The notes under the pieces are model-generated. The model saw only the letters and a list, made by a program, of their open reading frames with translations, was not told where the DNA came from and ran no database searches. From a virus, in the IMG/VR virus record IMGVR_UViG_3300037585_004471, positions 1 through 26,518 of that record: a stretch of 26,518 bases of DNA; one strand, 5' to 3'. Shown here piece by piece: positions 2,497-26,518 of the stretch (the stretch's first letter is position 1; the number at the start of each line of letters is the position of its first letter). The translations under genes were made by a program, and so were the position numbers.

Positions 2497-5165
2497 TGCC
2501 TAAGCAAGTTTGGAAGATAGAACGCTTTGATGGCGGATTGAATACAAATGCCGATCCAAGGGATATTGATGATAAAGAATTAGCTGCTGCTACTGATATT
2601 ATAGTAGATAATGTAGGTAAGATCAGAACTATGGGTGGTACTGCTACTCATGGGACTGTTCAAGCTTTTACAGCTGCAATTGAGGCTGGTTATGGTTTAT
2701 TTCAGTTTAGTCATGATAGAACTGGTGCAAATGTTATGTCTGCTGATTATAGTGGTACTCATACTGCAGCTGATCATGGCACTATTATGACTGATTCTGC
2801 GGCTACATTTCCAGCAAATGCTTTAATTGGAGCAACAATAAATAATACAACTGATGGTAGTTCTGGTACGATTACTGATAATGCTGGAACTACAGTAACT
2901 GCAACTTTAAGTGGGGGTAGTGATGATAGTTGGGATACAAGTGATGCATATACAATAACTGCATTCCCTGAGACAGGTGATGATTATTTAGTAATAGCTG
3001 ATGCTGATTCAGCTTCAAATATAGATATATATAGTAAAAATAGTGATATGAGGGGTTATGGTAATATTGATTTAGGTAGTACTACAGGAATGAAAACTGT
3101 ATTTTATCAGGCAGATGGAGCATTAAGAGTTAGTGATAGTAATTTTGGTGTAGCTAATCAAAATAAATGGTATGGATATATAAAACAAACACACTTTGCA
3201 GCAGATTCAGATGGTGATGCTATAGCACCTGGAGGTTCTCCTGATGCTTATGATGGATGGTATTCAAAATCATTAAATCTTGCCAAACCTACTGGTGGTG
3301 TATTTGGCCCAGCTGTTGCTTTTACGGATACTACAGCTTCAAGTGGTGCTACTACTACTGATATTGAATATGGTGGTGGTGCTACTGATATATTTCAACA
3401 TTGGGCTAATTTTGATGGTGAAGAATATATTGCTGTTGTTTCTGGACAGAATGCAAGAGTTATTACAAAAGTACAAGATACTGGTGGAGGTAATAATGAT
3501 GATCTTGTAACTGTAGCTAATGCTGGTAATTGGACTGGAGAAGCTATTGAATTATACCCTCCTATAGGTAAAGGATTTAATGTTTATTTTGATAATTCTA
3601 GTGATACAGGTAGCTGGACTGGAGGTACTTATGAGATAGGTACTACATTTATATATCAAGGAGGTCAAGAATCAAATGTATTTGATATATCTGCAGGTGG
3701 AAATCGTAGTATCAATGATGATAATATTCTTAATACTGGGAGTGCTTTAGATGTAAAAATATTTGCTACATCTCCATATGATCCATTTATAACTGGTGGG
3801 CGTGTTTATATTAGAAAGTATGGATCTGATACTCCATGGGTGTTGCTTGTAGATATTAGTTTAAAGGATGGAGTCAGAAAAGATTTAACAACGTCCTATT
3901 CAGCTTGGACTTTAAGAACTGCAACTGGATCGGGAGATGCTCCTTCAAGTGTGTATTTGACTGTAGATTTAGGAGCCATAGTAGATCCTAGCCCCTGGAC
4001 ATATGAAAAAATTAATGGATATCAGGCAGATGAATCTATAGATATAGGTGCTGTAGGAGAAGGATTTAAAACAGCAGTTGTTGCTAATAGACAAACTTAT
4101 ATTGGAAATGTAAGAAGAGAAGGCAAAGATGGAGTAACAAGGACTGAAGGTGATGCAATGTATAAGTCAATGCCTGGTAAGTTTGATACATTCCCTCTTG
4201 CAAGAAAGATTGAAGCTAGTGTTCAGGATGGTGATCAGATAGTTAAACTTGAAGAATATGCAGATCGTATCCTGCAGTTTAAAAAGACTAAAATGCATTT
4301 AATAAATATATCTCAGGATGTTGAATTTCTGGAAGATACTTTTATGAATAAAGGGATATCACATCCTGCTTCTACCTGTAAGACTGATTTTGGTATTGCA
4401 TGGGTAAATGTGGAAGGATGTTATTTATATGATGGAAAGAATGTAATTAATCTACTTGAAAAACAGGGTAGACAGATAATAAAGGAAGAGGAATGGGATA
4501 AATTTTTAAGATCGGATAAGACTACAAGCGGTACAAGACTTACTCCAATGGTTGGATATTTGCCAAAGAAAAGGCAGATAATTGTTTTTGATGATATAAC
4601 AACTGGTAGTACAGCTGATCCTAGAATGTATCTTTATGATATGGTAACACAATCCTGGGTACAGGGAGCAGATGATAGTAGTACAAGAATTATTGATATT
4701 GTAAAAACAAACTTTGTTACAGATTGGAATGGTGATTTAATATATGCTCATACGTCAGGCACTGTAGTTAAGTGGGATGACACAAGCGATGCTACAGATA
4801 CAATTAGTTTTAAAACAAAGGATATAGATTTTGGTCATCCTGCTGTAAGAAAGAAAGTTTATAAAGCTTATATATCATATAAAGGAGATGGATCTGCTGT
4901 TACAATAGCATATCAAACTAATGGTGATACAGATGCAGGGTCACCATTTTATAGAACTGAAAGTGATGGTTCTTCAGATAAAACAAATTCAGATACAACT
5001 CCTTTATTAAATGTTGGGACTGACGATTGGGTACTTGCTGAGTTAAAGCCTGTAACATCTATTAAGAATATATATAGCTTTCAATTAATATTTGATGGTA
5101 CTGCTGCTGCTGATTTTGAGATTAATGATATTTCTATTGTTTACAGGATGAAAACTATAAGATAA
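2496..5165 (+). CDS. Large beta-rich phage tail protein (nozzle/hub-like), putative
   Basis: An 889-aa protein. The N-terminus (FDGGLNTNADPRDIDDKEL, residues 11-29, then VDNVGKIR) is a pattern common at the start of structural proteins of short-tailed phages. The rest is rich in Gly, Thr, Asp and Ser with many short beta-strand stretches, for example TVTATLSGGSDDSWDTSDAY near residues 128-147. Residues about 588-650 (ADRILQFKKTKMHLINI ... WVNVEGCYLYDG) look like propeller blades. No enzyme motif is seen. Its place just before a C1q-type receptor-binding candidate fits a tail nozzle or adaptor analogous to T7 gp12. That role is inferred from composition and position. Confidence 0.65.
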   Translation: MPKQVWKIERFDGGLNTNADPRDIDDKELAAATDIIVDNVGKIRTMGGTATHGTVQAFTAAIEAGYGLFQFSHDRTGANVMSADYSGTHTAADHGTIMTDSAATFPANALIGATINNTTDGSSGTITDNAGTTVTATLSGGSDDSWDTSDAYTITAFPETGDDYLVIADADSASNIDIYSKNSDMRGYGNIDLGSTTGMKTVFYQADGALRVSDSNFGVANQNKWYGYIKQTHFAADSDGDAIAPGGSPDAYDGWYSKSLNLAKPTGGVFGPAVAFTDTTASSGATTTDIEYGGGATDIFQHWANFDGEEYIAVVSGQNARVITKVQDTGGGNNDDLVTVANAGNWTGEAIELYPPIGKGFNVYFDNSSDTGSWTGGTYEIGTTFIYQGGQESNVFDISAGGNRSINDDNILNTGSALDVKIFATSPYDPFITGGRVYIRKYGSDTPWVLLVDISLKDGVRKDLTTSYSAWTLRTATGSGDAPSSVYLTVDLGAIVDPSPWTYEKINGYQADESIDIGAVGEGFKTAVVANRQTYIGNVRREGKDGVTRTEGDAMYKSMPGKFDTFPLARKIEASVQDGDQIVKLEEYADRILQFKKTKMHLINISQDVEFLEDTFMNKGISHPASTCKTDFGIAWVNVEGCYLYDGKNVINLLEKQGRQIIKEEEWDKFLRSDKTTSGTRLTPMVGYLPKKRQIIVFDDITTGSTADPRMYLYDMVTQSWVQGADDSSTRIIDIVKTNFVTDWNGDLIYAHTSGTVVKWDDTSDATDTISFKTKDIDFGHPAVRKKVYKAYISYKGDGSAVTIAYQTNGDTDAGSPFYRTESDGSSDKTNSDTTPLLNVGTDDWVLAELKPVTSIKNIYSFQLIFDGTAAADFEINDISIVYRMKTIR

Positions 5166-8358: not shown

Positions 8359-9863
8359 TGGCTGAACTTGATACATTAGCATTAGTGCTGGGAGAAGCTG
8401 CTGATATATATCTCAAGTCTAAGAGTCTTGATCTTGCACATTCTCAATTTTTGCAGAAACAAGCTAATGTTGAGATTGATCGTCAATTACAGATAGAAAG
8501 GGATGATAAAGAAATTGCTGTAAGAGTTCTTGATGCTCAAATGGCAAGATCACAAAAAGAATATAATACTTTATATGCTAAAGTAGATGCAGCTCAAGCA
8601 GATTACCAAGCTCAAACTGGAGATCTTTTAAAGTTGGATCCGATAGCAAAAACATCTAGTGCTGGTGAGATAAGTAAGACTATGTTTGATGGAACTTTGG
8701 GACAGTATGGTCAAGCATTACAAGATTTAAATACTGATATAATTCAAATGAGAAGAACATCTAATGAACTTTCAAAAAGACTTTCTTCTATTGATATAAT
8801 GCGAGCTGATATAAAGGGTGGAGCAGGTGGATATGCAGGTGGTACTGAAGCTACTAGATATGATCCAGGTGATTTCTCATATGAGGATTATATTGCTAGA
8901 GCTGGTATTGAAGGCCAACCTTGGCTTGAAAAAGCATATAGAGATCCTACTCCAGTTGATATTACTACTCTGAATAAACAATTATTAGATATAGATTATA
9001 AAAAATCGTATATAGCAGCACGTGATTCAATAGGTCAGGGTAAATCTCTTAATGATTATTATAAAGGAAAATATTTTCAAGTTCAAGCAAACACAAAAGG
9101 TTTTGCCCCATATAAAGGATTATTAGCAACTGCTGGTACATTTACAGAAGAAGGAAAAGAAAATGATCCTACTTATCAAAGAGTATTATTACAAATTGAT
9201 TCAGAAAAAGAAAGAATAGCTAGATATCTTGATCCTGTTAATTATGATAAAATACAAGAAGCATTTAGCAAACAAGGATATACTCAAGAAATGTTTGATC
9301 AATATTCTGCTGGTGATACAAGTTTTATGAATAAATGGACTGCTGAACAGCAAAAATCTTTTGTTAGACAGTCAGATAATTATAAAAAATTTATAGAAGG
9401 AACTTTTTTTGAAGGTTATGATGCTGTAGAGCTGCTGAAGGGCAAAGGTAATATAGCAGGTACTGGGGATGATCTTAATAAACTAGTAATGAAAAAAGTC
9501 AGTCAGTATAATGCTCTTAGAAATACAGATCCTGTAAAAGCTAAACAATTAGCTGAAACCTTTAATCAAATAACTGGTATTGATATTTCAAATCCGAATG
9601 ATGTAGAAGAACTTCAGATGAAAGTAGAATCTGAAGGTTTTGTTGGGATAAAAGACCCTTCTCTTCGTACTATAATATCAAAGTCAAAAGATTCTCCTAC
9701 ATTTAGAGGATCCACTGATTATAGTGTATTGAAAGACAGTTGGTTAAAGGCTGATACATATCCTGATAGTCCTGAATATAAATTAGCAGTAGAGAATCTC
9801 ATAGGCGATTTACTTCCTAAGTGGGGTAGGGCTGAGATTATGAATGAAGTAGGAGCATGGTAA
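8358..9863 (+). CDS. 501-aa mostly helical virion-operon protein, unknown
   Basis: Begins in a TAATG overlap. The first about 160 residues are Ala/Gln/Asp/Leu-rich with heptad-like spacing (FLQKQANVEIDRQLQIERDD), predicting a long coiled coil. A Gly-rich hinge follows (IKGGAGGYAGG, about residues 151-161). The remainder is mixed helical and charged, without Cys and without recognisable motifs. Long helical proteins just before giant ejection proteins are typical of internal-core or cargo proteins of short-tailed phages, so a core/ejection role is a reasonable guess. A tape measure is less likely because it is short and lacks long repeats. Confidence 0.6.
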   Translation: MAELDTLALVLGEAADIYLKSKSLDLAHSQFLQKQANVEIDRQLQIERDDKEIAVRVLDAQMARSQKEYNTLYAKVDAAQADYQAQTGDLLKLDPIAKTSSAGEISKTMFDGTLGQYGQALQDLNTDIIQMRRTSNELSKRLSSIDIMRADIKGGAGGYAGGTEATRYDPGDFSYEDYIARAGIEGQPWLEKAYRDPTPVDITTLNKQLLDIDYKKSYIAARDSIGQGKSLNDYYKGKYFQVQANTKGFAPYKGLLATAGTFTEEGKENDPTYQRVLLQIDSEKERIARYLDPVNYDKIQEAFSKQGYTQEMFDQYSAGDTSFMNKWTAEQQKSFVRQSDNYKKFIEGTFFEGYDAVELLKGKGNIAGTGDDLNKLVMKKVSQYNALRNTDPVKAKQLAETFNQITGIDISNPNDVEELQMKVESEGFVGIKDPSLRTIISKSKDSPTFRGSTDYSVLKDSWLKADTYPDSPEYKLAVENLIGDLLPKWGRAEIMNEVGAW

Positions 9864-10787
9864 ATGAGTGACTGGCTTATAGATATGATGTCTGAAAAGA
9901 CTTTTGATAAGTCTATTGAAGCTAAAATGGATTCATTAGATAATGTTTTTAAGATAAGGGAAACTGCAAATCTTATAGGTGTCTCTCAAGATTCTGTTCT
10001 TAATATGTCAGATAGTACTTTAACAGCTGCAGCAGATAGTGCTTTACAAAAATTACAGGAAGTTCAAGACTTTCCTGAGATAGTTCAAGACCCTCCTGAG
10101 AATATGGCATATTTAAATCCAGATATTACCACATCAAGACCAGGAGGTTGGTTGGGAAGAAATATAAGGGAAAAAATGAGCATTAGAGGTACTGAAATAG
10201 CAGAAGGTGGTGAAGATAAAGGTTTTAGAATAGATCCTGATGCTATAGCTCATAGATTACCACCAACAGAAGGAAAAGAATATTTTGAAAGAGTACTTCA
10301 GCAATATCATAAAGAACTAAGCAAGCAAAGTGATGTTCTTTTGAGTCCTGGGTCTTATGGTGATTCTAGATTTGGTGAAAAACTAATGCAGTTAAATACT
10401 GATTTAAAAATTAGAGAAAATTTAACTCAACAGTTAAGTGATGTGTATAAAACAATACCTGAAACTGAAGAATATAAGAATATAAGAAATATTTATTTAT
10501 CTAGAATTGAATCGAATCCCACTGGTAGAAGTATTAGTGCAGGTAAAGAAGATTTTGTTTTACATACTCCATTGTCTGATGAAGAACCAGAAAAATATAC
10601 CAAGGACTTTTTACCCATACCTGAAGAAATTGCTGCTTTAGAAGGATGGGGGCGTAATCCATTTATAGAAGTTTCTGATTCTTTAAATGCTATATCTGAT
10701 TTTAAGGCTGAATCTTTAGCAGCGGATGTACCTATAACTACACAAGATCAGCCCGAATGGTTTTTTGACCAAGCTTCTGCTGAATAA
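9864..10787 (+). CDS. 307-aa acidic virion-operon protein, unknown
   Basis: ATG follows the previous stop directly, with AGGAG at 9851-9855 eight bases upstream. The protein is acidic, with a helical N-terminus (residues 1-75, SMDSLDNVFKIRETANLI-like), a Pro/Gly-rich middle (TTSRPGGWLGRNIREKM, about 91-107) and a Glu/Asp-rich C-terminus. No motif is recognised. It ends 5 bases before the start of the 3075-aa polymerase-like gene, so a structural or chaperone-like partnership with that protein is possible. Only gene order supports this. Confidence 0.6.
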   Translation: MSDWLIDMMSEKTFDKSIEAKMDSLDNVFKIRETANLIGVSQDSVLNMSDSTLTAAADSALQKLQEVQDFPEIVQDPPENMAYLNPDITTSRPGGWLGRNIREKMSIRGTEIAEGGEDKGFRIDPDAIAHRLPPTEGKEYFERVLQQYHKELSKQSDVLLSPGSYGDSRFGEKLMQLNTDLKIRENLTQQLSDVYKTIPETEEYKNIRNIYLSRIESNPTGRSISAGKEDFVLHTPLSDEEPEKYTKDFLPIPEEIAALEGWGRNPFIEVSDSLNAISDFKAESLAADVPITTQDQPEWFFDQASAE

Positions 10788-10792
10788 TATAT

Positions 10793-13700
10793 ATGTCTGC
10801 TTACGATCGTTTTAATGTAGATGCTCTACTAGAAGAGATACAAAACCCACCTGTTACAACTGATCTTGCACAACCGCCAAGAGAAGGATTTGGAGCTACT
10901 GCATTTGAAGCTATGGGTCAAAGTCTTTGGGGTTTTACTACTGGGTTTAGCTGGGGTCTTCCTGAGATAGCAGATATTGCTGATGAGGCGGTAACTGGAA
11001 GACCTAATAGAATAGAAGAATGGGTAACAAGTATACCTGCTAAAGCATTTACTTTTGGAGATGACAAAGAAAGTTATGCAGGAGATTTTTCTTCATCTGC
11101 TACTGATCGGGAACTAACACTTCCTGGCAAGATAGGATATACTGTAGGGAATGCAGTTGGTATGCTAGCTAGTTTCGGTTGGCTCGGGAAAGGACTTAGT
11201 GCGGGAATAAGAGGAGTCTCAAAATTAGGTTCAGGAGGTATGACTACTGCAACTAAACTTGCACAGGATGAAATAACTGAATCATTTGGTAAAATAGTAT
11301 TTAAAGCAGGGCAGAAAGAAGGAGCAGAGCAGTTTACTGAAGAAGTATCTAAAGATATTGCTACAAATGCTCTTAATATTGTATCAAAATCTGGAGTTCA
11401 TTACCAGGCAAATAAAAAGCTTGGTGATGCTATGATCCAGCAAGGCTTTAAGCAATCTATAAAAGAAGAAGCATTAAGACCTATATTGGGGAATATAGAT
11501 GATGCTTTACTTGATAAGTTTGCTGGAGAAACTCTTGAAATAGCAATGAGAAGAAGTCCCAATGAAGGTATGAATATTATTAATAATGGTGTTCTTAACC
11601 TGATGAGAAGGGGCGGTACTATACAAGATCTCTCCAGAGCACAAAGAATTTCTGCATCTGTAGCAGGTGCAAGTGTGTATGATGCATTGCTTGGTACTGT
11701 TATAGGTGCTGTAAGAGGTCTTGGTGAATATAAAATTAATGAATCATATAATTGGAATAAACCTGAATCTGCATTGGGCCATATTCTTGATACTGCTGCT
11801 CATGAAGCTGCAATCTTTTCAATACTTGGCCCTGTTAAATTTATTAGGGGTGGTGGCCGATTAAGTGCAATTAAAAAAACCAAGGATATGACACGTGGTG
11901 TTATTAATAGCTTAAGACCTGTTAAGAAAATGACTGCAGAACAACTTGAAACTAATATAGAGTTGATGCATCATTTGAGTGGTGGGAATATATCTTCTCA
12001 TTTAGGTGGTAAATGGATTGGTAAAGCTGATGGATGGTGGAAAGGTGCTGGTAAACTATCTAAGAAAGAAGCTGAAAAGTCTGTTAAAGAAATGCGTGAG
12101 TTCCTTACAGAATCACGTCGTGTATTTTTAAAGGAAGCACCAGGTGTATTTGCCAGTGAAGTAGGAGCAGATATGTTTTATAGTCTTCCTAGAATGATGA
12201 CTGGTGCTGTTGCTATGAATCTTACTGGATTGAAACAGGCTATTGATGAATATGGTGTTACTGGTTTTATGGAAGGATTTGGTGCAACTGATTATGAGAA
12301 GGTATCGAATATCATGACAGCTATGTTCTTTACAAAAACACCTCATTCATTTCATCTCCCAGGAGCAGCTTACCCTGCTTTTGAAACAGGTAATATAAGA
12401 AACTTCTCATCAAGGAAGGGTGAGCAATTTAGTAAAGTAGTTACTGGATTAAATCTTATAGGTGGTAGGAATTATAAAAGTGCATTACAAATAGCATCTC
12501 AATATGGTGGTATGAGTGATACTACTCCTGCTGATCATTTTAATAAAGTATATAGTAAGTCCTTTGAAGGGGCTGAAGAAATACAACGGATAAGAGAGGT
12601 AATAGATCCTCATACTTCTGAGAAATACGTTACTCCGCAAGGTGAAGAACCTATAGGTGGACTAAGAGTAGCAGGTGCTAAATATATAGCTGAGAATGTT
12701 ACTGAGATAGGAGAAAAAGCTGATTGGAGAAATAAACTAAGTACAGCTTTAAAAATAGTTAGATGGCATGATGAAAATTCTGCAAAGACTATGGACATCA
12801 GTGCAGGATTAACAAAGGAAGCAGCTGGTGATCTTATTAATAAACTATCATCAATTGAATTTGATGGTAAAAGATTAAGTCCCAGAGAGCCACAACAACA
12901 GTTAAATGATTGGCTTGCTGCAAGAATATCTAGAGAAAGTAATGTTCCTATCAGTATTATAAAAGATTTTGTTGTAGAATCATATAGAGAGCTTGGTGTT
13001 CCTAATGTAGGGGAAATAGATGGTGTAATAGTAGTTCCAAGAATAAATGAAAATCTTTTTGGGTCTTATGTTGATAAAAATACAAATAAAAGAGATGGAT
13101 CCAGACCTGAATCTGGAGAGGCTTTAAGAAGTCTTGTTACAGCAACTCAGCAATTAGAAAAATTAGGTGTTGTAAGATTTGCCGAAGCTGTTCACGATGC
13201 TTCTTCAGATGAAATGATTTCAAAAAGTATTGATGTAAAAAATACTGCTGTTAAGAAGATGATGCAGTATGTACATGGTGATGCATGGGAAACAAAAGCA
13301 TTAGATGATTCTATTCTAAGAAATCCTTCTTGGTATGTTCAGCATAATAAATTATCTGATATCTCTCAGAAACTGAATGTAGAAAGAGTATTAAAAGGTT
13401 CAGGTGATCATGGTCTTGATGAAAATTCTGCGAATAAATTATATGAAGACTTAAGAGACAATCTTTCAGGTAACAGTTTCCCCGAAATAACTACTAAAGA
13501 CAATCTTGTAATGGATGATGTGCAGATAAGTCAGACAGCTGATTTAGCAGGTGCCATTAAAGATATGAGGCGTGTACATAATCTTGTAAATCTTGTAAAC
13601 CCTCAAAGTATTTCAGGCCCCCAAAGGAATTTATCAGCAGAAAGATTACTTGAGATTCATGGACAATGGTCAAGGACTCTTGGTGATGCTGTTACTAATG

Positions 13701-16700
13701 ATGTTTTGTACAGTAAAATGCAAGAATATTTGGTTGGTAAAGCTATTAAGAATCTGGGTATAAGTCGTCTTTCTGGTGGATATAACCTGCATGCTGGTAT
13801 ACATCAGCTGGTAACAAATAAAGAATTTATGCGAAGTACTGGCATGCAAATTCCTAAAGTGGAACAAGTAAAGGCTATGCTTGAAGCAAAAGGAGATCAG
13901 ATTACTCCTGAAACACGTGACAGTGTTTTGAAATATTATAATAGTGTAGTTGGGGCTATAACTGAGTCAAGACTTGGAAAAATCCAGGTAAGAGAAATGG
14001 TTGAACAGCAACAAGGTGCCTGGTATGAAGCAATAAGATCATCTATGCTTACTGGAAGAGGAAGGGCAAGCGAGTTTGCTTATGAAAGAATTTTAGATTT
14101 TACGAATCAAGCACAGGATCTTCTTGATCAGCATCAAGTCTTTGCAGATGAAATGACGTTGAGTGCATCTAGAGAAGGTATCAATACTATAAAGGAAAAG
14201 AAATTAACTGGATTATTTATGGCAGCAGAAGGAGATATAAGAAAGGCTGTTGCTCAATATAAGAGTGCTATAGAATCAGGAGATGGATTTATTGTTCATG
14301 CATATGCAGATCGTATGGATAGATCTATGGAATTATTAGATTTAATAACTCAATCTGCTGTTACAGGAACGCATGGTCAGTATACTCAGGAATTATTAAA
14401 ACTTAGCAGAGAAGCTATAAGTGAAGCTGAAAGAAGCGGTTGGACTGAATTAACTGTAAAGGAAGAAGCTTCCAGAATAATGGGAAGACATACTATACCA
14501 GAAAAAGACACAATAAATACAGGGATTCGTGTTTCATCTTCGCAATTTGCTCAAAAATATGATTTAAATATTACAGATATGACAAATATGTTTTTGTCTT
14601 ATAGGTCAATGAACACTACAATGGGTAAGACTGCTGAATCCATATTGAATGTCTTAGATAAAGTGGATCCTATGATGGAATATAATGGTGTAAGAATATT
14701 TACACCACAGCAAGCAAGTGATATTTCAAAGACAAGGGAATATGTAAAGAATGTAATTGCTAAATCTGGATCTCCTGATCCAAATAAATTCTGGCAAGAG
14801 ATTGTAGATCCATTAATGTTCAGTATCAGAACAAATGAAATTGTAAGAAACCGTAGTAAGATTAATAAAGAGCCTGAAGGTGGATGGGATAAATATAACC
14901 AAACACTTATATCCGACATCAGTTCTATAACTACAGCATATTTTAGTAGTATGCCTGTAAAACAATATTCCTATAGAAATGGTCAATTATTTCTAGGTGA
15001 AGCTAAGGTAGGCTACACAGATAAACATGGCGTACAGGGTGTAATTTCAGCCTTAAATGGCACATCTGAAATATCTATGCTAAGTAATGGTTTTTATATA
15101 GGCGGTAAATATGTTTCAAAGCCAAATAAGAAACAAATGCAAGAGATTATCAGGGAGATTGAATCAGGTGATGGATTGCATGTTGAGATGGATAATGGAC
15201 TTAGGGAATATCTTGGAGATAGAAAAAAGATTGAAGATCATAAAGCAGCGGAAGGTAATGATGCTATTATCCTTAATAAGCAAAGATTTAAAGTTATAAG
15301 TGCTGATGAAAGCACGTTAATGCTTGTAAGAATAGGTAGGGATGGTCGTATTGAGAATGATCTTTTATCTGGCTTTCGTAAATCGGGTAAAAATGCAGAT
15401 GGTCAGAGAATGTCTGGTGGACATTTATATGAAAAGATCCAAGCATCATTAGAATACGATCCAATAACCAAGAGTGTAGATTATCCTACTGAAATTTCAA
15501 GAATTGTTGATAGAATCAATGAGGGTAAGCTTACAGATAATGAAATACATGATGCAGTGGTATTGACAAGAATTATTAATGATAGACCATCTCTTATAAG
15601 GAAGTTTGCTGAGTTATCTGCTGAAGAAAGAAAGAAATCCTGGAAGTATCTAAAGCTTAGTGAGATGAAGGGTGGATTTGTAGGTCATGAAGAGAATCTT
15701 GCAAGAGTTAGATCATTTTTAGAAGGAGCTGCTAGTCAAGATAAGTCTGGTTTTTTTGCAAATGTTTTAGAACAGGCAAGAATATTTTTACCTAAAGATA
15801 AGAATGCTAAGTTTCCAAAGATGAAACTGCTGTCTGTTGCTGATGAAATGGTGCATCAAGATGGTAAGTTAAATATATTTTCATCTATTGATCATAAAAT
15901 AGCAGAATTAACCGATCTGAAATCAAGAGAAATAATTGATGAAGCTACATTTAACGAGAATGTAACTAAATATAAAGCTCTTAGTAAATCTATAGTTGAT
16001 GGTGAAACATTTATATCTAAACGTGCTTATGTAGCTAATCTTGCTATGATGGGAGGTATCAGTCCTGATATGGTTAAGTTTGGCCCTGGTGGTGAGATAC
16101 AAGAGATAATGATAGGTGGTATCAAGCCTACTATATCTCATACAGATGTTAAAACAGACATGAGTGATCTTACAAGTTATGGGAGAGTTAAAGAATTCTA
16201 TGCAAAGACAGCATTCAAATACAATCCTGAGTTTGATCAACTATTTACTGATTTAAAAATAGATGGTATTACATTTAATTCAGCTAATAAGATCAATGAG
16301 TATAGAAATAAAATATCAGATCCGTGGTACAATACCGATATGGAACAAATGCAATCTACTATTGCAGCTGGGAATCGCAATGTACATGCATCAATAAAAC
16401 CTATTGAGAGCCATGTTGATATGCCTAAAGGTTTTGGTTCCGTAAGTCAATGGTTGGGTAAAATTGGTAATATTATACATCATAGTACAAATATACATGA
16501 AATACCTTTTGAATCTATCAACTTAAAATCTTTAGGACAGCCTCATGATCCATTAGTAGGATCAAATCTCAGTGTACATATGCATGATAATGTAGGAATC
16601 AGGGAATGGATTGGATTAGATGCTAAGATTAAAAATACATATAGTGCTTTTGAAAAATATGTAGATCCATATTATGCAACAAGATTAGCTCGTGATCTAT

Positions 16701-19700
16701 TTGCTCATTCTTCTGATACAGGAGATATGACATGGCTTAATACAGGTATAGATCATTTTCTAAAACATGATGGTCTTTTAATATCCCCATGGGCAAAGAC
16801 GAAGATAGAAGAAAAGATTATTCCATACTTTATGAATAATGGTATGATAGCTGCAGGTCGTGTACCAGAAGGATCTTTAGATGTTATGACTGCAGATACT
16901 GGAGGTTTAAGAACATCTACTGTAAGAACAGAAGCTGATGGTGGCAGATCAGTTCAATTATATGGTGAGTTTGTCCAATCAAAACATGCTGCTGAAAAAG
17001 AGTTTAAGATTGGTGGTGTAGGAAAGAGAGAAGATGTTCAAAGTGTTATTATACAGACTGTTAAGCATGGTAGTTTTGATCGTGAAGGCAATTATGAATT
17101 AAGATCTTCAGACGCATTTCTTGTTAGACGTGGTAAGGAGAAGTATGTTATTATAGAAGGTAAGGCTATTGATAAGGAAGGTAGTCTAAGAGATATATAT
17201 GATGATTCAATTATAAGCTATAAAGGTAATAATTCTACAGATAATAAACGTGCTAAGGTTGAAAATAGAAAAGTATTTAATGAAGTAGTAGCAAGAGAAA
17301 ATGAATTCCTTAATGATTATGTTCAAAAGGGAATGAATTATAGTGAAGTTATGACACAGCTTTACTGGCACGGTCAGGATCCAGCTTATAAAGAATATGA
17401 TATGGCACTTGGCTCACTCAATAATAGACAGCCAAGAAACCAGGCTGGTGATGTTGTAGTTAGCAGGTTGAAAGCACATGAAATAGATGGGAAGGTAATT
17501 ACACATAATGGTGAATTTGCTGGTAATAGCAGTAGGATGAATCATGCTGATGCTATCAATCCACAAGATGCTGATTATGATATGGATAAATCTTCTTCAT
17601 TCCTTGCTGCTCCAAGCAGATTGTGGGCTGAAGCTGGAAGACTTGCTGGATATAGAACTGTAGATGATATTAAAGGGATAGAAGCTATTTTTGATAAATT
17701 TAGTGCAGAGAATCCTAAACTTTTTACATGGGAAGGTGATCCTCATCAATATAAAGGTGAGATAAATGCTACTGATCTAGCACGTGGAAGATTTGTAAAG
17801 ATGCATCAAACCTTAACTTATATGCAGAATATATTAAGGGACAATCGGGGTATGATGATTAGGATGGCTAATCCTTTTGGTGGTTATAATCCTGTAGAAA
17901 TTAGAATGAATACTAATAAGTTAAGATATCTTAATACAGTTGATGAAGTTTCAAAGAATGTTAAATTATTTTTAGATATGTATAAGGAAAACCCTTTTGG
18001 ATATACAGTAAATCCAGAGCCATTAATAAGGGAATTAATATTTGGATTTGAACGTAGTGGTGTTAAACATGAAGGTTTATTTGATTTATATAATGCTAAG
18101 ACAGGTGAAAGAATAGTAGATCAGAACATAAATGACTCTTCTACTCCAATGAAAAGAGCAAGGGACGATATATATTATGGATTAATATCTCCTGTTGGAA
18201 GGTATCTGAAATATAATAAAGGTACTACAACAGATGAAACAAATAGAGATTTATCAGCTACTCTTCAGGATTATCAAAATGCCAGACGTGGTCTTATGTT
18301 TTCTATACTACCAAATAAAAAGGGATTAAACTTTAAAACTGAATACAAAGGTAAAGATGTATTGTATGATAATACAGGTATGTATGAAGCTGCAAATAAT
18401 TATTTTGCTAATTCAGCTAATCCATTTGATGTTGCGATGAAAGGTCTTCATGAAATTGCAAACAAACATCATGGACTGGATGAAACAAAGCCAGGTACTC
18501 ATCATATATTAAATTATCTAAAGGATGGTAGGATGCCAGCAGAATGGTCTCTGCCTCCTAATATAAAATCAGATTTAACAACTGAATTTCAAATGAATAG
18601 AATTGCAAAAGAAGCTATGCATCAACTCGCACAGAAAACAGGAGATATTGTCAAGTTTGAAGAGTTGGCTGCCAATCTTAGAAGGATCAATAGTAAAATA
18701 GAATATCTTGATGGCATTGGAGGTAATAGAGGTAGGGATATAAAGGAAACAACTGAGTATAGAGAACTTCAAGGTCAAAAAATAAGAACAGAAGAATTAA
18801 AGTCTATTGTTGAAGAACATTTATCATATGATTCCAATAATCCAAAGAATGAATATGTATATAACCCAGCTCAAAAGGAGCCTAAAAAACAGGGTGACTA
18901 TACTAATTTTGAAAATAGACCTCTGGTTGTAGTAAATAAAAAGGGTGAAACTAAAGAAGTAATATTGCCTGGAAGAAGAAATATTAAAGATATTTATTCA
19001 TCTGATCGTCTTGTTAAAAATGGTCATAGATATGAGATTGTAGATGGTGAAGCTCAAATGGGTTTAAGATCTGATTTTAGAGCTTTTGGAGGTCAAGTAA
19101 AATATGTACATGAAGATGGTAGGATTACTCATATATCAAAAGGGGAGCAAGTATATATAAATTCAGAATACAATAATTTAAGACAAAGAATTAATGAAAT
19201 GTATGCTAAGCTTCCTGATCGCACAGGGCCTGTACTTGCTGAATATGCGGCCAGACGTACTTCAGAGATACTTGATTTACTTTCAAGTCCTGAGTTTAGT
19301 GGTGATCCTGCACGTCAGTTTGCAATGATTGCAAGGATGTTAAGACCCAACTGGGATCCTAATGTTTCACCTATTATACCAACAAGATTTGGACAGCACT
19401 CACGTACTTCAGTAGTTGGATCTATAAAGTTTACTGAAAATAAATTAGCTCAGGGTGTGTGGAATACTCTTGCTCAAGTAGCAAATGGTAGTGTTGAAGT
19501 AAGTAAGGGTGGTATAGATAAAACAATGGCTAATCGGTTATTAAAGGATCTTATCTCTCTTTCAAGGAGTTATTATGTACAGGAGAAGACTGGTATTGAA
19601 GTTGATATGAGAAAATTAGAGAAGATAGGATTTACAGAACCAACAGAACTTCCTCATGGATATATGACAGATGCTCAATATTTAAACAAGGGTATATATA

Positions 19701-20020
19701 AAATAATGCGTGATGGTGATAAACAGCAGCGGCATGCAGCAGGATTAATGTATGATTATATGTCAGGTAGTAAAATGGTTGATTCAGCTACTCTTTATAA
19801 AGCATCTAAAGCTATGGAAGAAGCGGGGATACGTGTAGATGAACAGTTTATGATGAAGACTTATGATCGGGAAACAAATACATATGGTGATGTTGAAGTA
19901 AGAAACTTTGGTGTTATGGATGCATATAACAGTAGGAATAGAGGGCAAGGTGGTATAGTTAAGGAATCAACTACTGGTAGGGTAAAAGAATTATTTAAAT
20001 GCCTTGATCTAACTAAATGA
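10793..20020 (+). CDS. Giant virion protein with putative two-barrel RNA polymerase domain (crAss-like vRNAP type)
   Basis: One uninterrupted frame of 3075 codons. Residues 1-600 contain Gly/Ala-rich hydrophobic stretches (IGYTVGNAVGMLASFGWLG near 114; ILGPVKFI near 350) like ejection proteins that enter membranes. Residues 1736-1833 read VDGETFISKRAYVANL ... KTAFKYNPEFDQLF ... IDGITFNSANKI, resembling the first, beta-like double-psi barrel of crAss-like phage polymerases. Residues 2219-2266 read GDVVVSRLKAHE ... INPQDADYDMDKSS, resembling the beta'-like barrel; Asp2261, 2263 and 2265 would bind catalytic Mg, as in NADFDGD of cellular beta'. No T7-type palm motif or HExxH protease motif was found. 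Expected role: polymerase packaged in the virion and injected with DNA to transcribe early genes. The start lacks a ribosome site but lies 5 bases after the previous stop. The domain call rests on motifs read by eye. Confidence 0.75.
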   Translation: MSAYDRFNVDALLEEIQNPPVTTDLAQPPREGFGATAFEAMGQSLWGFTTGFSWGLPEIADIADEAVTGRPNRIEEWVTSIPAKAFTFGDDKESYAGDFSSSATDRELTLPGKIGYTVGNAVGMLASFGWLGKGLSAGIRGVSKLGSGGMTTATKLAQDEITESFGKIVFKAGQKEGAEQFTEEVSKDIATNALNIVSKSGVHYQANKKLGDAMIQQGFKQSIKEEALRPILGNIDDALLDKFAGETLEIAMRRSPNEGMNIINNGVLNLMRRGGTIQDLSRAQRISASVAGASVYDALLGTVIGAVRGLGEYKINESYNWNKPESALGHILDTAAHEAAIFSILGPVKFIRGGGRLSAIKKTKDMTRGVINSLRPVKKMTAEQLETNIELMHHLSGGNISSHLGGKWIGKADGWWKGAGKLSKKEAEKSVKEMREFLTESRRVFLKEAPGVFASEVGADMFYSLPRMMTGAVAMNLTGLKQAIDEYGVTGFMEGFGATDYEKVSNIMTAMFFTKTPHSFHLPGAAYPAFETGNIRNFSSRKGEQFSKVVTGLNLIGGRNYKSALQIASQYGGMSDTTPADHFNKVYSKSFEGAEEIQRIREVIDPHTSEKYVTPQGEEPIGGLRVAGAKYIAENVTEIGEKADWRNKLSTALKIVRWHDENSAKTMDISAGLTKEAAGDLINKLSSIEFDGKRLSPREPQQQLNDWLAARISRESNVPISIIKDFVVESYRELGVPNVGEIDGVIVVPRINENLFGSYVDKNTNKRDGSRPESGEALRSLVTATQQLEKLGVVRFAEAVHDASSDEMISKSIDVKNTAVKKMMQYVHGDAWETKALDDSILRNPSWYVQHNKLSDISQKLNVERVLKGSGDHGLDENSANKLYEDLRDNLSGNSFPEITTKDNLVMDDVQISQTADLAGAIKDMRRVHNLVNLVNPQSISGPQRNLSAERLLEIHGQWSRTLGDAVTNDVLYSKMQEYLVGKAIKNLGISRLSGGYNLHAGIHQLVTNKEFMRSTGMQIPKVEQVKAMLEAKGDQITPETRDSVLKYYNSVVGAITESRLGKIQVREMVEQQQGAWYEAIRSSMLTGRGRASEFAYERILDFTNQAQDLLDQHQVFADEMTLSASREGINTIKEKKLTGLFMAAEGDIRKAVAQYKSAIESGDGFIVHAYADRMDRSMELLDLITQSAVTGTHGQYTQELLKLSREAISEAERSGWTELTVKEEASRIMGRHTIPEKDTINTGIRVSSSQFAQKYDLNITDMTNMFLSYRSMNTTMGKTAESILNVLDKVDPMMEYNGVRIFTPQQASDISKTREYVKNVIAKSGSPDPNKFWQEIVDPLMFSIRTNEIVRNRSKINKEPEGGWDKYNQTLISDISSITTAYFSSMPVKQYSYRNGQLFLGEAKVGYTDKHGVQGVISALNGTSEISMLSNGFYIGGKYVSKPNKKQMQEIIREIESGDGLHVEMDNGLREYLGDRKKIEDHKAAEGNDAIILNKQRFKVISADESTLMLVRIGRDGRIENDLLSGFRKSGKNADGQRMSGGHLYEKIQASLEYDPITKSVDYPTEISRIVDRINEGKLTDNEIHDAVVLTRIINDRPSLIRKFAELSAEERKKSWKYLKLSEMKGGFVGHEENLARVRSFLEGAASQDKSGFFANVLEQARIFLPKDKNAKFPKMKLLSVADEMVHQDGKLNIFSSIDHKIAELTDLKSREIIDEATFNENVTKYKALSKSIVDGETFISKRAYVANLAMMGGISPDMVKFGPGGEIQEIMIGGIKPTISHTDVKTDMSDLTSYGRVKEFYAKTAFKYNPEFDQLFTDLKIDGITFNSANKINEYRNKISDPWYNTDMEQMQSTIAAGNRNVHASIKPIESHVDMPKGFGSVSQWLGKIGNIIHHSTNIHEIPFESINLKSLGQPHDPLVGSNLSVHMHDNVGIREWIGLDAKIKNTYSAFEKYVDPYYATRLARDLFAHSSDTGDMTWLNTGIDHFLKHDGLLISPWAKTKIEEKIIPYFMNNGMIAAGRVPEGSLDVMTADTGGLRTSTVRTEADGGRSVQLYGEFVQSKHAAEKEFKIGGVGKREDVQSVIIQTVKHGSFDREGNYELRSSDAFLVRRGKEKYVIIEGKAIDKEGSLRDIYDDSIISYKGNNSTDNKRAKVENRKVFNEVVARENEFLNDYVQKGMNYSEVMTQLYWHGQDPAYKEYDMALGSLNNRQPRNQAGDVVVSRLKAHEIDGKVITHNGEFAGNSSRMNHADAINPQDADYDMDKSSSFLAAPSRLWAEAGRLAGYRTVDDIKGIEAIFDKFSAENPKLFTWEGDPHQYKGEINATDLARGRFVKMHQTLTYMQNILRDNRGMMIRMANPFGGYNPVEIRMNTNKLRYLNTVDEVSKNVKLFLDMYKENPFGYTVNPEPLIRELIFGFERSGVKHEGLFDLYNAKTGERIVDQNINDSSTPMKRARDDIYYGLISPVGRYLKYNKGTTTDETNRDLSATLQDYQNARRGLMFSILPNKKGLNFKTEYKGKDVLYDNTGMYEAANNYFANSANPFDVAMKGLHEIANKHHGLDETKPGTHHILNYLKDGRMPAEWSLPPNIKSDLTTEFQMNRIAKEAMHQLAQKTGDIVKFEELAANLRRINSKIEYLDGIGGNRGRDIKETTEYRELQGQKIRTEELKSIVEEHLSYDSNNPKNEYVYNPAQKEPKKQGDYTNFENRPLVVVNKKGETKEVILPGRRNIKDIYSSDRLVKNGHRYEIVDGEAQMGLRSDFRAFGGQVKYVHEDGRITHISKGEQVYINSEYNNLRQRINEMYAKLPDRTGPVLAEYAARRTSEILDLLSSPEFSGDPARQFAMIARMLRPNWDPNVSPIIPTRFGQHSRTSVVGSIKFTENKLAQGVWNTLAQVANGSVEVSKGGIDKTMANRLLKDLISLSRSYYVQEKTGIEVDMRKLEKIGFTEPTELPHGYMTDAQYLNKGIYKIMRDGDKQQRHAAGLMYDYMSGSKMVDSATLYKASKAMEEAGIRVDEQFMMKTYDRETNTYGDVEVRNFGVMDAYNSRNRGQGGIVKESTTGRVKELFKCLDLTK
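15980..16297 (+). other. Candidate beta-like double-psi-barrel segment within the giant protein
   Basis: Residues about 1730-1835 of the 3075-aa protein. VDGETFIS, then KPTISHTDVKT, then KTAFKYNPEFD and IDGITFNSANKI follow the order of conserved blocks (DG-x-a-f/y-I-s, K-P, K-x-s/a, D-x-I-x-F-x-S-A-x-K) known from the first barrel of single-chain crAss-like polymerases. Lys1805, Lys1809 and Lys1833 are the candidate functional lysines. Confidence 0.55.
17447..17602 (+). other. Candidate catalytic beta'-like barrel with DxDxD triad
   Basis: Residues about 2219-2270. DADYDMDKSSSF aligns by eye with NADFDGDQMAVH of cellular beta' and with the D-F-D-I-D-K form of crAss-like polymerases. Arg2225 in VVVSRLKAHE precedes the triad at roughly the spacing of the conserved Arg in the same barrel. 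Confidence 0.6.
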
Positions 20021-23906: not shown

Positions 23907-24101
23907 TTATTTCCTTAGGTTGTGTCTGCCTAATGCGATCCACATTAGATCAGGCGTTAATCGTTTAACATTTCCTAGATGGCATCTTTTAGCCATCCTA
24001 TGAACCATTCTATATAGTTCATCTTCTATTGATTCCATGGCTCCAGATCCTAGTTGTACATTACAGGATTTGAATTCATTCTTTATCTGTTTTTTCGTCA
24101 T
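23907..24101 (-). CDS. 64-aa histone-fold-like small protein, putative
   Basis: A 64-aa protein matching the helix-loop-helix-loop-helix plan of archaeal histones: a short helix 1 (residues 3-13, KKQIKNEFKSC), loop NVQLGS, a long helix 2 (20-42, ESIEDELYRMVHRMAKRC), loop GNVKRLT with the Arg-x-Thr pair that in histones faces DNA, and a helix 3 starting at Pro50 (PDLMWIALGRHN). The length is near that of archaeal histones (about 65-70 aa). The match is by eye and no histone is usual in a phage replication module, so DNA compaction or a CBF/NF-Y-like regulator role is only inferred. AAAGGA precedes the start. It is the first gene after the structured intergenic region. Confidence 0.5.
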   Translation of the reverse strand: MTKKQIKNEFKSCNVQLGSGAMESIEDELYRMVHRMAKRCHLGNVKRLTPDLMWIALGRHNLRK

Positions 24102-24123
24102 CTTAGTTTCCTTTGAAATTTAT

Positions 24124-24208
24124 AGGCAGGATTCTACAACGTTTTTGTGTGACACTTCAAGCGAGGCTTACATCATATCGCCCAGTACGGATCTGGGGAA
24201 CCCTGCCT
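24124..24208. ncRNA. Structured module 1 of a tandem three-module array (85 nt)
   Basis: Closed by a perfect 7-bp stem, AGGCAGG (24124-24130) with CCTGCCT (24202-24208). Inside on the plus strand are a small-loop hairpin AAGC/GCTT (24159-24169, loop GAG) and a 5-bp stem with a 7-nt loop, CCCAG/CTGGG (24181-24197, loop TACGGAT), which has the geometry of a tRNA T-arm. There is no standard tRNA D-loop or anticodon arm, and the transcribed strand is not certain. It is more GC-rich than its surroundings. Confidence 0.5.
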
Positions 24209-24215
24209 AATTTAA

Positions 24216-24301
24216 TGGCAGTATATATTTTCCTATAGATGAAGTCCCAGATCTTCCATAAGTCTGACTTACACAGTCCCGAATCCCGAGGATTACTGCC
24301 A
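24216..24301. ncRNA. Structured module 2 of the array (86 nt)
   Basis: Closed by a perfect 8-bp stem, TGGCAGTA (24216-24223) with TACTGCCA (24294-24301). Nearly all the interior can pair as four hairpins: TATA/TATA (24224-24237), GAAG/CTTC (24241-24256), TAAGT/ACTTA (24259-24271, loop CTG) and ATCC/GGAT (24283-24293, loop CGA), giving a five-way junction like a tRNA with a long variable arm. Seven bases separate it from module 1. Confidence 0.5.
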
Positions 24302-24306
24302 AATTA

Positions 24307-24378
24307 TAGGTGATACTATCTCAGTAGCCAACCGATTGCCATGCTTCTTTTAAAGCTAACAGTTTATAATATCACCTA
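24307..24378. ncRNA. Structured module 3 of the array (72 nt)
   Basis: Closed by a perfect 9-bp stem, TAGGTGATA (24307-24315) with TATCACCTA (24370-24378). Inside are CTA/TAG around TCTCAG (24317-24328) and GCTT/AAGC around CTTTTA. Its right arm covers the stop codon of the 62-aa gene, so on the minus strand it begins inside that coding sequence. Five bases separate it from module 2. Confidence 0.5.
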
Positions 24379-24560
24379 ATGTTAGTTTTTTCAATTATTA
24401 TTTGTATTTTTTTTAGTTCTTCTAATAAGATTAGAGCTCTTTGTTCTTCAGTTGAAGATGGTTCTGTGTCTTTTAGTACCCTATCTAGTCCTTCTAATAA
24501 GATTAGAGGTTCTTGAATGTGTTCAAATACTAAAATTGGAACTTTCATAGATTTAGCCAT
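24372..24560 (-). CDS. 62-aa hypothetical protein with internal peptide repeat
   Basis: Starts in a TAATG overlap with the Gp157-like gene; GGGGGA lies about 10 bases upstream. It is Leu/Ile/Glu-rich and helical. A peptide LILLE(G/E)L occurs twice (about residues 19-25 and 43-49), encoded by an 18-base exact direct repeat. No family is recognised. Its stop codon is embedded in the closing stem of structured module 3, so folding of the transcript could affect its translation end or mRNA stability. Confidence 0.6.
   Translation of the reverse strand: MAKSMKVPILVFEHIQEPLILLEGLDRVLKDTEPSSTEEQRALILLEELKKIQIIIEKTNIR
24419..24436 (-). repeat. 18-bp direct repeat, copy 1
   Basis: CTTCTAATAAGATTAGAG on the plus strand; identical to 24491-24508, 72 bases apart, both in the same frame of the 62-aa gene. 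It probably arose by internal duplication. Confidence 0.9.
24491..24508 (-). repeat. 18-bp direct repeat, copy 2
   Basis: Identical to 24419-24436; encodes the N-terminal LILLEGL copy of the peptide repeat. Confidence 0.9.
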
Positions 24561-25054
24561 TATCTAAATCCCCCAACGAAATTCTTCCTTAGAAGTCTTA
24601 CACCAGGGATTTTAGTACCATCTTTTAGTTCATCTAGTATTCTTTTCTTGTCAAGTTTCTTTGTTTGAACGGTTATCCAGTATTCATCGGGTATGTCTTG
24701 TTCGTCAATTACTTCGACTGCACCAGCGGATTTTCTTATCTTTAATGGATTAAATACAGAATTCTTGGGCATTGTATTCAATTCTCCATGTGATTCGATA
24801 ACAAGCTGCTTAACCCGTTCGTTTGTATTGTGCAGCATTTTCTTTATATTTTTACATTTGGCTATATGGTCATTTACCATTTCCATCTTTTTTTCATTAT
24901 CACGGTAAAACCAGTATATACCATCTTCTTTTTGATATAATTCAGTAAACAGTTCTTTAATTTGAAGATTAAACTGTTCTGGATCCATTGACATCTCCAT
25001 ATTCATCTGTTGAGTCATGATGTCAGTGGTTATATCATTCATCGTCCTTTTCAT
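24560..25054 (-). CDS. Gp157-like phage protein (Siphovirus Gp157 family)
   Basis: A 164-aa protein. An N-terminal helical, Met/Gln/Lys-rich half (DHIAKCKNIKKMLHNTNERV) is followed by a conserved C-terminal domain: FNPLKIRKSAGAVEVIDEQ, IPDEYWITV, KLDKKRILDELKDG, IPGVRLL. The order (R-K-S-x-x-V-E-V, I-P-x-E-Y, V/L-D-K-x-x-I, G-x-x-I-P-G) is that of Gp157 proteins, found next to single-strand-binding or recombination genes in many phages; the molecular function is not settled. The start is set at 25054 because AAGGA lies 8 bases upstream. A start at 25078 (172 aa) is possible but overlaps the upstream gene by 44 bases. Confidence 0.75.
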   Translation of the reverse strand: MKRTMNDITTDIMTQQMNMEMSMDPEQFNLQIKELFTELYQKEDGIYWFYRDNEKKMEMVNDHIAKCKNIKKMLHNTNERVKQLVIESHGELNTMPKNSVFNPLKIRKSAGAVEVIDEQDIPDEYWITVQTKKLDKKRILDELKDGTKIPGVRLLRKNFVGGFR

Positions 25055-25235
25055 ATTGTTCTTCCTTCCCCATTTCATCCCAGTCTGGAGCTTGTGTCTC
25101 TGGATCTAAATCCATACCACATATACCACAGGTAAGTGATTTAGGAGTATTTGTATCTTCTTCTTTTGGTTGATATTCCATATCTTCCTTGGGGTGTTGA
25201 CATGAAAGATCTTTGGTTGTAATTATAGCAATCAT
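25035..25235 (-). CDS. 66-aa small protein with CxxC zinc-ribbon-like motif
   Basis: Starts in an ATGA overlap with the helicase stop. Residues 12-14 (CQH) and 36-39 (CGIC, in LTCGICGMDLDPE) could together bind one zinc ion. The C-terminus is very acidic (DEMGKEEQYEKDDE), a tail often used by phage DNA-metabolism proteins for protein contacts. No named family is recognised. Coupling to primase/helicase and the Gp157-like gene suggests a replication accessory. Confidence 0.6.
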   Translation of the reverse strand: MIAIITTKDLSCQHPKEDMEYQPKEEDTNTPKSLTCGICGMDLDPETQAPDWDEMGKEEQYEKDDE

Positions 25236-26518
25236 CCTATTAGTTTTATCCCATCCAGTGATAAGTCAACGTGTAATGTCTCTTTTTCACGGTTAGCAGT
25301 GCTCTCAAGCTTTAATCCTTTGATCAAATTGGTTTCATTTACATCAAATAGGGGTTGCAAGGATAATACCTTATTAACATTATATGCTACTCTAAAAGAG
25401 CCTTTAGATGATGCAATATTCATACCTTCATGAAATGCACTTTTTGTTATTTCACTTATTACAAATATAATAAGATCGTATTGTACTGCGAGTTCAGTTA
25501 AAAATTGAGATGCTTCTTCTACCTTCATATTATTGTCTTTCATTCGGCTTCTTAACAAGCCAAGATGATCAACAGCAACTATTTCAGGCTTTTGAGGTAA
25601 CATATTAATACGTTTCTCTATCTCATATGGATAGCATGAATTATAATCAACTGTAAGCCATTCAAAACTAGCATCAAGTCCATTTTTCTTTTTTGAATAA
25701 TGTACCTTTAAATCTTCTTCATCCCATCCCCTGTTAATCATTATGAATCTGGACATTATCTGTCTAGGAGACATCTCTAATTCCATTAAGTATGTTCTTT
25801 TCTTTAATGCATTTATCCAATTCAGGATCAGCATTGTTTTCATACTTTTAGGAGGAGCCTGGATCAGTACAACTTCACCAGGATAGATTGGAAATGAATC
25901 AACTTGTTCATACAAATCTTTAAAATCTATTGGTTTTATGTTACTTGTATAGAAATCAATTAATACATTTTCCATATCTGTAGCTGTCATTACCGATTGA
26001 TTTTTCTTCGATTTATATAGAAAACATGTTGGTTGACATAATTTGTCTTTTACTGGATCAGCACATCCATAATTATATCCACTACCTTTATTAGCAATAT
26101 AACAAGATGTAATAATCTTATCTAATTCTGCTTTTTTAAAGGGAGTATCATGTTTATCAACACGTTGTCTCCAGTCTTCCATAATAAGACGAACAGTATT
26201 TTCTGGGTATCTCCATCTTAGATGAGAACCTAATCTTAATGCTGTCATATGTCTACTACCCTGATTAACACCTTTTAGCATTAATTGAATACAGGTATAG
26301 TTTATTGGATCAGGCTCTCTTCCAAGTTCAGTTTTCTTGATTTCAGTTGATTCTTTTTTAGTTTTTCTTACAAGAACATCAAATACAGGTTCGCAAACCA
26401 TCTTGGGGTATTTGAAATCTCTTCTGGGGGTATTCTTAAAGTTTAAAGTAAAATTTGTAAATTCTGAATCATTTAATGGTATCTTCCATCTTCCAGATTT
26501 AGTATTAAGAGTATTGGG
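25232..26518 (-). CDS. DNA primase/helicase: PriCT-like region plus RecA/DnaB-type ATPase (5' end outside window)
   Basis: The frame is open to the right edge: 39 codons precede the first Met (26401) and read like protein (SGRWKIPLNDSEFTNFTL, then TPRRDFKYPK), so this is an internal Met and the N-terminus is missing. Counting from that Met, residues 44-101 (GVNQGSRHMTALRLGSHLR ... ELDKIITSCY) resemble a primase C-terminal (PriCT) domain. Four Cys (100, 113, 122, 126) follow and may bind metal. Then comes a RecA-like ATPase: Walker A APPKSMKT (182-189), the strand LMELEMSPRQI (205-215) and Walker B IVAVD (274-278). Expected role: replicative helicase, perhaps fused to a primase beyond the edge. 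Walker A lacks the usual Gly before Lys, as in RepA-type P-loops of the PKSxKT form. Confidence 0.8.
   Translation of the reverse strand, partial: PNTLNTKSGRWKIPLNDSEFTNFTLNFKNTPRRDFKYPKMVCEPVFDVLVRKTKKESTEIKKTELGREPDPINYTCIQLMLKGVNQGSRHMTALRLGSHLRWRYPENTVRLIMEDWRQRVDKHDTPFKKAELDKIITSCYIANKGSGYNYGCADPVKDKLCQPTCFLYKSKKNQSVMTATDMENVLIDFYTSNIKPIDFKDLYEQVDSFPIYPGEVVLIQAPPKSMKTMLILNWINALKKRTYLMELEMSPRQIMSRFIMINRGWDEEDLKVHYSKKKNGLDASFEWLTVDYNSCYPYEIEKRINMLPQKPEIVAVDHLGLLRSRMKDNNMKVEEASQFLTELAVQYDLIIFVISEITKSAFHEGMNIASSKGSFRVAYNVNKVLSLQPLFDVNETNLIKGLKLESTANREKETLHVDLSLDGIKLIG

Follow-up and report, generated by a model that had tools for sequence, protein, structure and literature searches.

The gap between a 62-aa gene and the 64-aa gene o64, in the replication operon of a marine phage, appears to hold three unrelated, independently folding RNAs that would be part of the operon transcript, be exchanged among phages as cassettes and serve as stable, trans-acting phage RNAs. 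Judged from sequence, we give this reading as a whole a probability of about 0.5. The modules, named m3, m2 and m1, form defined structures, and m2 and m3 carry compensatory changes; other modules of this kind change their position between related phages and nest inside one another. That they are structured modular RNA is highly probable; the further step to action in trans could go either way. They are not tRNAs, decayed tRNAs, members of any Rfam family or copies of each other, and they seem to form a set of structured phage RNAs not yet characterised.

Results

Genomic context of the array

The window, by which we mean the whole stretch of DNA analysed, comprises the 26,518 bases of a virus record that has no close relatives among isolates. 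Every gene between 23015 and 26401 has the minus strand as its sense strand, and the array was read on this strand (Table 1). Besides the two flanking genes, the operon encodes DnaB-like helicase, Gp157/Gam-like and RusA-like proteins. As an earlier note made from the sequence alone had stated, no protein-coding gene is apparent in the array (a 57-aa ORF at 24037–24210 lies on the plus strand, antisense to the operon), and the array is richer in GC than its surroundings (0.41 versus 0.33–0.34). The o64 protein is kept across the phage group with the pattern QLG...RC..GN.KRLTP and has no Pfam match. A plus-strand gene at 10793–20020 encodes a 3075-aa protein without a Pfam match, and the neighbouring large plus-strand genes mostly lack PHROG and Pfam matches. 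A longer contig of the same phage, L091, carries two more strongly folding intergenic elements (2336–2428 and 4051–4129) upstream of the helicase gene, beyond the window. An upstream gene of L091 first taken for an o64 paralogue was dropped, the link having arisen as an artefact of a fused ORF in L014; in the latter contig, o64 is extended at its front by a fused cysteine-rich reading frame, directly after m2 (9604–10044, minus strand).

Table 1. Features of the array and its operon in the window.
Feature	Position	Strand	Details
Gene o64 (64 aa), downstream	23907..24101	-	AAAGGAAA in front of o64
Module m1	24123..24209	-	12-bp closing stem (G-U allowed) TAGGCAGGGTTC/GAATCCTGCCTA; hairpin CCCAG-AUCCGUA-CUGGG; more small hairpins
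AT-rich spacer m2/m1	24210..24215	-	m5 (182 nt) at the same place in L007/L016
Module m2	24216..24301	-	8-bp closing stem TGGCAGTA/TACTGCCA; hairpins CUCG/CGGG and UAUGGA/UCUAUA; possible pseudoknot AAGUC/GACUU
AT-rich spacer m3/m2	24302..24306	-	In relatives, m4 (L007), m6 (L013) or a 42-nt module (L003, L014) at the same place
Module m3	24307..24378	-	13-bp closing stem (G-U allowed) TAGGTGATATTAT/ATAGTATCACCTA; variable middle arm; conserved hairpin UCGGU-UGGCU-ACUGA
62-aa gene, upstream	24372..24560	-	ORF list and sequence; TGA stop within the first strand of the m3 closing stem
Gp157/Mu Gam-like gene	24560..25078	-	PHROG 253, E = 4e-22; Pfam PF05565, E = 2e-16
DnaB-like helicase gene	25232..26401	-	PHROG 19, E = 8e-18

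The three modules fold separately on the sense strand

In the operon sense, the three closed modules follow head to tail in the order m3, m2, m1. Three consecutive closed modules had been described at 24124–24378; they are present, and no dinucleotide shuffle of the stretch contained three such modules (0 of 400; shuffle mean, 0.53). The closing stems, given as 7, 8 and 9 bp in that description, are longer with one G-U pair allowed, reaching 13 bp in m3 and 12 bp in m1 (8 bp in m2). The spacer pattern said to be shared at the 5' boundaries dissolved into an AT-rich spacer that is not conserved among relatives.

Both strands were folded and compared with shuffled sequences. The minimum free energy of the sense strand over 261 nt was −83.3, against −62.4 ± 4.5 for shuffled sequences (z = −4.6, 0 of 200 shuffles), and the antisense fold had a z of −2.4 (4 of 200). 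The minimum free energy structure of the array consists of three separate domains: a three-way junction in m3, a multi-arm junction in m1, and a closing stem with two hairpins in m2. This last fold, together with a possible pseudoknot, fits m2 better than the five-way junction proposed earlier. Folded singly, m3 and m1 were clearly more stable than their shuffles (z = −4.9 and −3.6, each 0 of 200), and the values were modest for m2 (z = −1.9) and for m4 and m6 of related phages (z = −1.2 and −1.5). With so modest an energy value for m2 alone, the support for this module comes mainly from comparative evidence.

Inverted-repeat boundaries and mobility would also suit hairpins acting at the DNA level (attC-like, MITE- or REP-like) or packaging or replication sites without an RNA function. 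We consider this very unlikely and rejected attC and MITE elements: folding is stronger in sense than in antisense, G-U pairs of m2 and m5 fall on the sense strand, and the orientation to neighbouring genes is constant.

The modules are neither copies of each other nor known RNAs

Pairwise alignments of m1, m2 and m3 scored no better than alignments against shuffled sequences, so that common ancestry has no sequence support. The small hairpins thought to be similar are not homologous, and the idea of one family fails: no two of the modules are related in sequence, and among relatives each is distributed differently.

The size and tandem order of the modules recall tRNAs, and m1 and m6 each contain a hairpin of 5 bp with a 7-nt loop resembling an anticodon arm. 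The suggestion of tRNA mimics or decayed tRNAs is nevertheless largely refuted and now extremely improbable. ARAGORN found no tRNA in the window or in 26 related loci, a T arm is missing, and RF00005 was not matched; the cores are conserved, covarying and unlike tRNA, and are not decaying. A tRNA array, intact or decayed, was rejected on these grounds. More generally, an Rfam 15 scan at gathering thresholds of the window and 15 relatives gave no matches, a permissive cmscan of the 281-nt array stretch gave none up to E = 5, and permissive scans of stretches from L007 and L131 gave none or chance-level matches only. Without any covariance-model match, Rfam 15 families (riboswitches, ribozymes, introns and sRNAs) were rejected. 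Group I and II introns and twintrons were dismissed, as there was no Rfam intron match and module ends differ completely between copies. A type III toxin–antitoxin RNA was also discarded: the modules are mutually unrelated, and their neighbours are the 62-aa and 64-aa proteins, Gp157/Gam, helicase and RusA.

Among isolate phages, neither the array region nor a six-core pool had a match at the DNA level, and neither the helicase nor an 889-aa protein had one at the protein level; only remote Gp157/Gam relatives were found. Cellular genomes gave no match for the m2 pattern or the helicase.

Compensatory changes support m2 and m3

Covariation was sought in homologues, and compensatory changes were found in both m2 and m3. 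In an alignment of m2 from eight related phage contigs, the interior is nearly invariant and the closing stem shows compensation, with changes on both sides of five of its eight pairs and all cells paired. One pair of an inner helix shows a compensatory U-A/C-G exchange, and the G-U exchanges in m2 stems fall on the operon-sense strand. The core DNA of m2 is about 90% identical among these phages, while for the proteins encoded on either side (62 and 64 aa) identity is mostly just some 46–62%. Matches of an m2 covariance model (R1) were confined to the close clade, with nothing convincing beyond it.

The architecture of m3 recurs in L003, L006, L011, L014, L017 and L031. In L031, a distant phage whose o64 is 36% identical, the m3 copy retains the GGUUGGC hairpin, and its closing stem of 12 bp differs in sequence. 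Compensatory changes affect 8 of 15 pairs in the m3 stem alignment, and the observed values were reached by 0 of 500 shuffles, although this alignment was hand-trimmed under guidance of the structure with the variable arm omitted, and the count therefore leans towards the structure. A search with a degenerate m3 pattern mostly matched unrelated, apparently coding stretches. The modules m1, m4 and m6 occur in one to three phages each, without covariation; m1 is represented by only three near-identical copies, and the support for it is its folding energy alone.

The position of m3 offers the best case for cis-acting elements, in which the modules would set the stability, processing or translation of neighbouring genes, as an insulator, an RNase stop or an autoregulatory binding site (for example, of o64 via m3). 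m3 overlaps the stop codon of the upstream gene and lies directly upstream of o64 both in the close clade and in L031, and all modules are intergenic and sense-oriented. We regard such a role as unlikely overall, though deserving of serious attention. Cores E, F, I and m5, described below, sit between different gene pairs and inside other modules, and long near-invariant cores are superfluous for a generic insulator.

Modules are gained and lost as units in close relatives

Module order is m3-m2-m1 in the window, m3-m4-m2-m5-m1 in L007 and L016, whose operon genes are approximately 90–97% identical to those of the window, and m3-m6-m2-m1 in L013, where the contig ends within m3. A 42-nt hairpin element stands between m3 and m2 in L003 and L014; L006 and L011 have m3-m2. 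L007 also carries, between m1 and o64, an HNH-like endonuclease gene (1095–1490, same in L016) that is absent from the window; the HNH assignment was made by eye, and Pfam gave no match. This gene may have a part in module movement.

Closed modules and recurring cores in related marine phages

A helicase alignment led to 80 related loci from marine phages on metagenomic contigs. Their 197 intergenic gaps, defined by a simple ORF caller, contained 92 closed modules, against 21.4 expected from shuffles; separate fold statistics for the gaps were based on 25 shuffles per gap. In same-length random, mostly coding stretches, used as a control, 28 were seen and 18.4 expected. At least nine recurring cores were found (A to G, I and m5), none of them with an Rfam match at gathering thresholds.

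The interior of core E is almost the same in L131, L134 and L148, where it is enclosed by three unrelated closing stems, and compensatory base changes are present in its closing stem. Its neighbours are c1 and c53/c12 in two of these phages and c17 and c4 in the third (labels of single-linkage gene clusters from the present analysis). Cores F and I likewise differ in gene neighbours between phages. The closing stem of module I is conserved with no compensatory change, which gives no covariation support for its structure. Cores are also nested: core A is whole in L109 and L134, contains only G in L111, and contains both G and E in L131. Core D lies inside C in L148 and beside C in L130.

The best-supported core is m5, which is 182 nt long in L016 and was found in 19 stretches of the viral collection. 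It occupies sites between different genes, and all copies are co-oriented with the neighbouring genes scored, short reverse ORFs being omitted from the scoring. Its closing stems include TGATTCAAT/ATTGAATCA, GGATGGT/ACCATCC, TGTAAACA/TGTTTACA, TGGTTCGAT/ATCGAACCA and GGTTTGAT/GTCAAACC. Compensatory change is seen at 15 of the 28 inner pairs when 14 distinct copies are compared (68 cells, counted by sequence and not by independent event). Overall, 94.7% of cells pair, and the covariation score was reached by 0 of 500 shuffles; the structure was derived from the same alignment and is favoured in the slid controls. About fifty positions are invariant across fourteen phage contigs with differing gene neighbourhoods. 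Closed modules adjoin m5 in other phages too, and arrays are therefore not peculiar to the clade of the window. In L169, L170, L178, L181 and L183, the module beside m5 has the stem GGGGCTTGG or a similar one, and lies upstream in some phages and downstream in others.

Nesting and relocation could also be explained if the cores were ribozymes or selfish elements that cleave, splice or insert themselves. Nested insertions with an empty site for comparison (L109 versus L111 and L131), the long invariant stretches of m5 and the HNH-like gene that immediately follows the L007 array speak for this. We think it improbable, since module boundaries lack the conserved nucleotides that group I or II introns would need, even permissive filters gave no Rfam ribozyme or intron match, the gene recognised by eye has no Pfam match, and ordinary phage recombination can also move modules. 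Known ribozyme families are covered by these scans, and a new class would be outside their reach; a catalytic role of m2, E or m5 is possible from sequence. Ordinary recombination of whole modules, with strongly constrained cores and compensated drift of the stems, is enough to explain relocation and nesting. Marine phages might also share mobile RNA cores whose insertion, between genes as well as into each other's loops, is driven by RNA itself, through new ribozymes or RNA guidance, and which so build nested and tandem arrays, including that of the window; in our view, this is quite doubtful.

Discussion

Independent folding, sense-strand bias, compensatory changes and unit-wise gain and loss support the earlier proposal of tandem phage small RNAs. 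We suggest that in each module a closing stem, whose sequence is free to vary, shields a conserved core from the surroundings, and that marine phages share a large reservoir from which modules would be gained and lost one at a time, move in sense orientation between intergenic sites and insert into each other's loops. The modules would be co-transcribed with the operon, and their closed stems may allow them to be excised from the transcript, or to be protected and persist within it. The resulting stable RNAs might then act in trans during infection, with the conserved core as the part that binds a protein or RNA of the host or the phage; by analogy with phage tRNA and stable-RNA arrays, the array could be a supply of trans-acting RNAs. 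Because modules change neighbours and sit inside others, cis control of one fixed gene is unlikely, and a generic insulator role is doubtful because conserved cores would not be needed for it.

Few noncoding RNAs of phages other than tRNAs have been found, mostly singly. Here, a single operon position led to a set of new structured RNAs, exchanged by phages as cassettes and comprising at least nine cores that recur. A core like m5, in which some fifty positions stay invariant over fourteen contigs, implies a specific role. Nesting presents RNA structures that evolve through the insertion of modules, and sites with and without an insert can be compared. In the literature searched, which comprised open-licence papers and left most subscription journals outside, no description of nested, stem-swapping phage RNA cassettes was found.

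The T4 tRNA cluster carries extra stable RNAs, RNA C and RNA D. By analogy, the present array would work most like such a phage stable-RNA array, yet without tRNAs. In both, small structured RNAs stand in tandem in one transcript, a predicted one for the present array, and the content varies among relatives; unlike T4-type arrays, the present one contains no tRNA, its modules are unrelated, the closing stems change freely, and modules are nested in relatives. Tandem structured RNA units are also found in the type III toxin–antitoxin repeats ToxI and CptI, but the units here are unrelated rather than repeated, and no recognisable toxin gene adjoins them. Twintrons and self-splicing introns share the insertion of structured elements within structured elements, whereas our modules are intergenic and have neither conserved ends nor a known intron core. 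Comparative analysis of metagenomic sequences has yielded candidate structured RNA motifs with unassigned function (PMC2864571), and GOLLD and ROOL are large structured noncoding RNAs linked to phages (PMC12286853). The modules resemble both groups as structured noncoding RNAs that emerge from comparative analysis, and GOLLD and ROOL also in their link to phages; they differ in having no Rfam match and in forming small units set in arrays rather than one large RNA.
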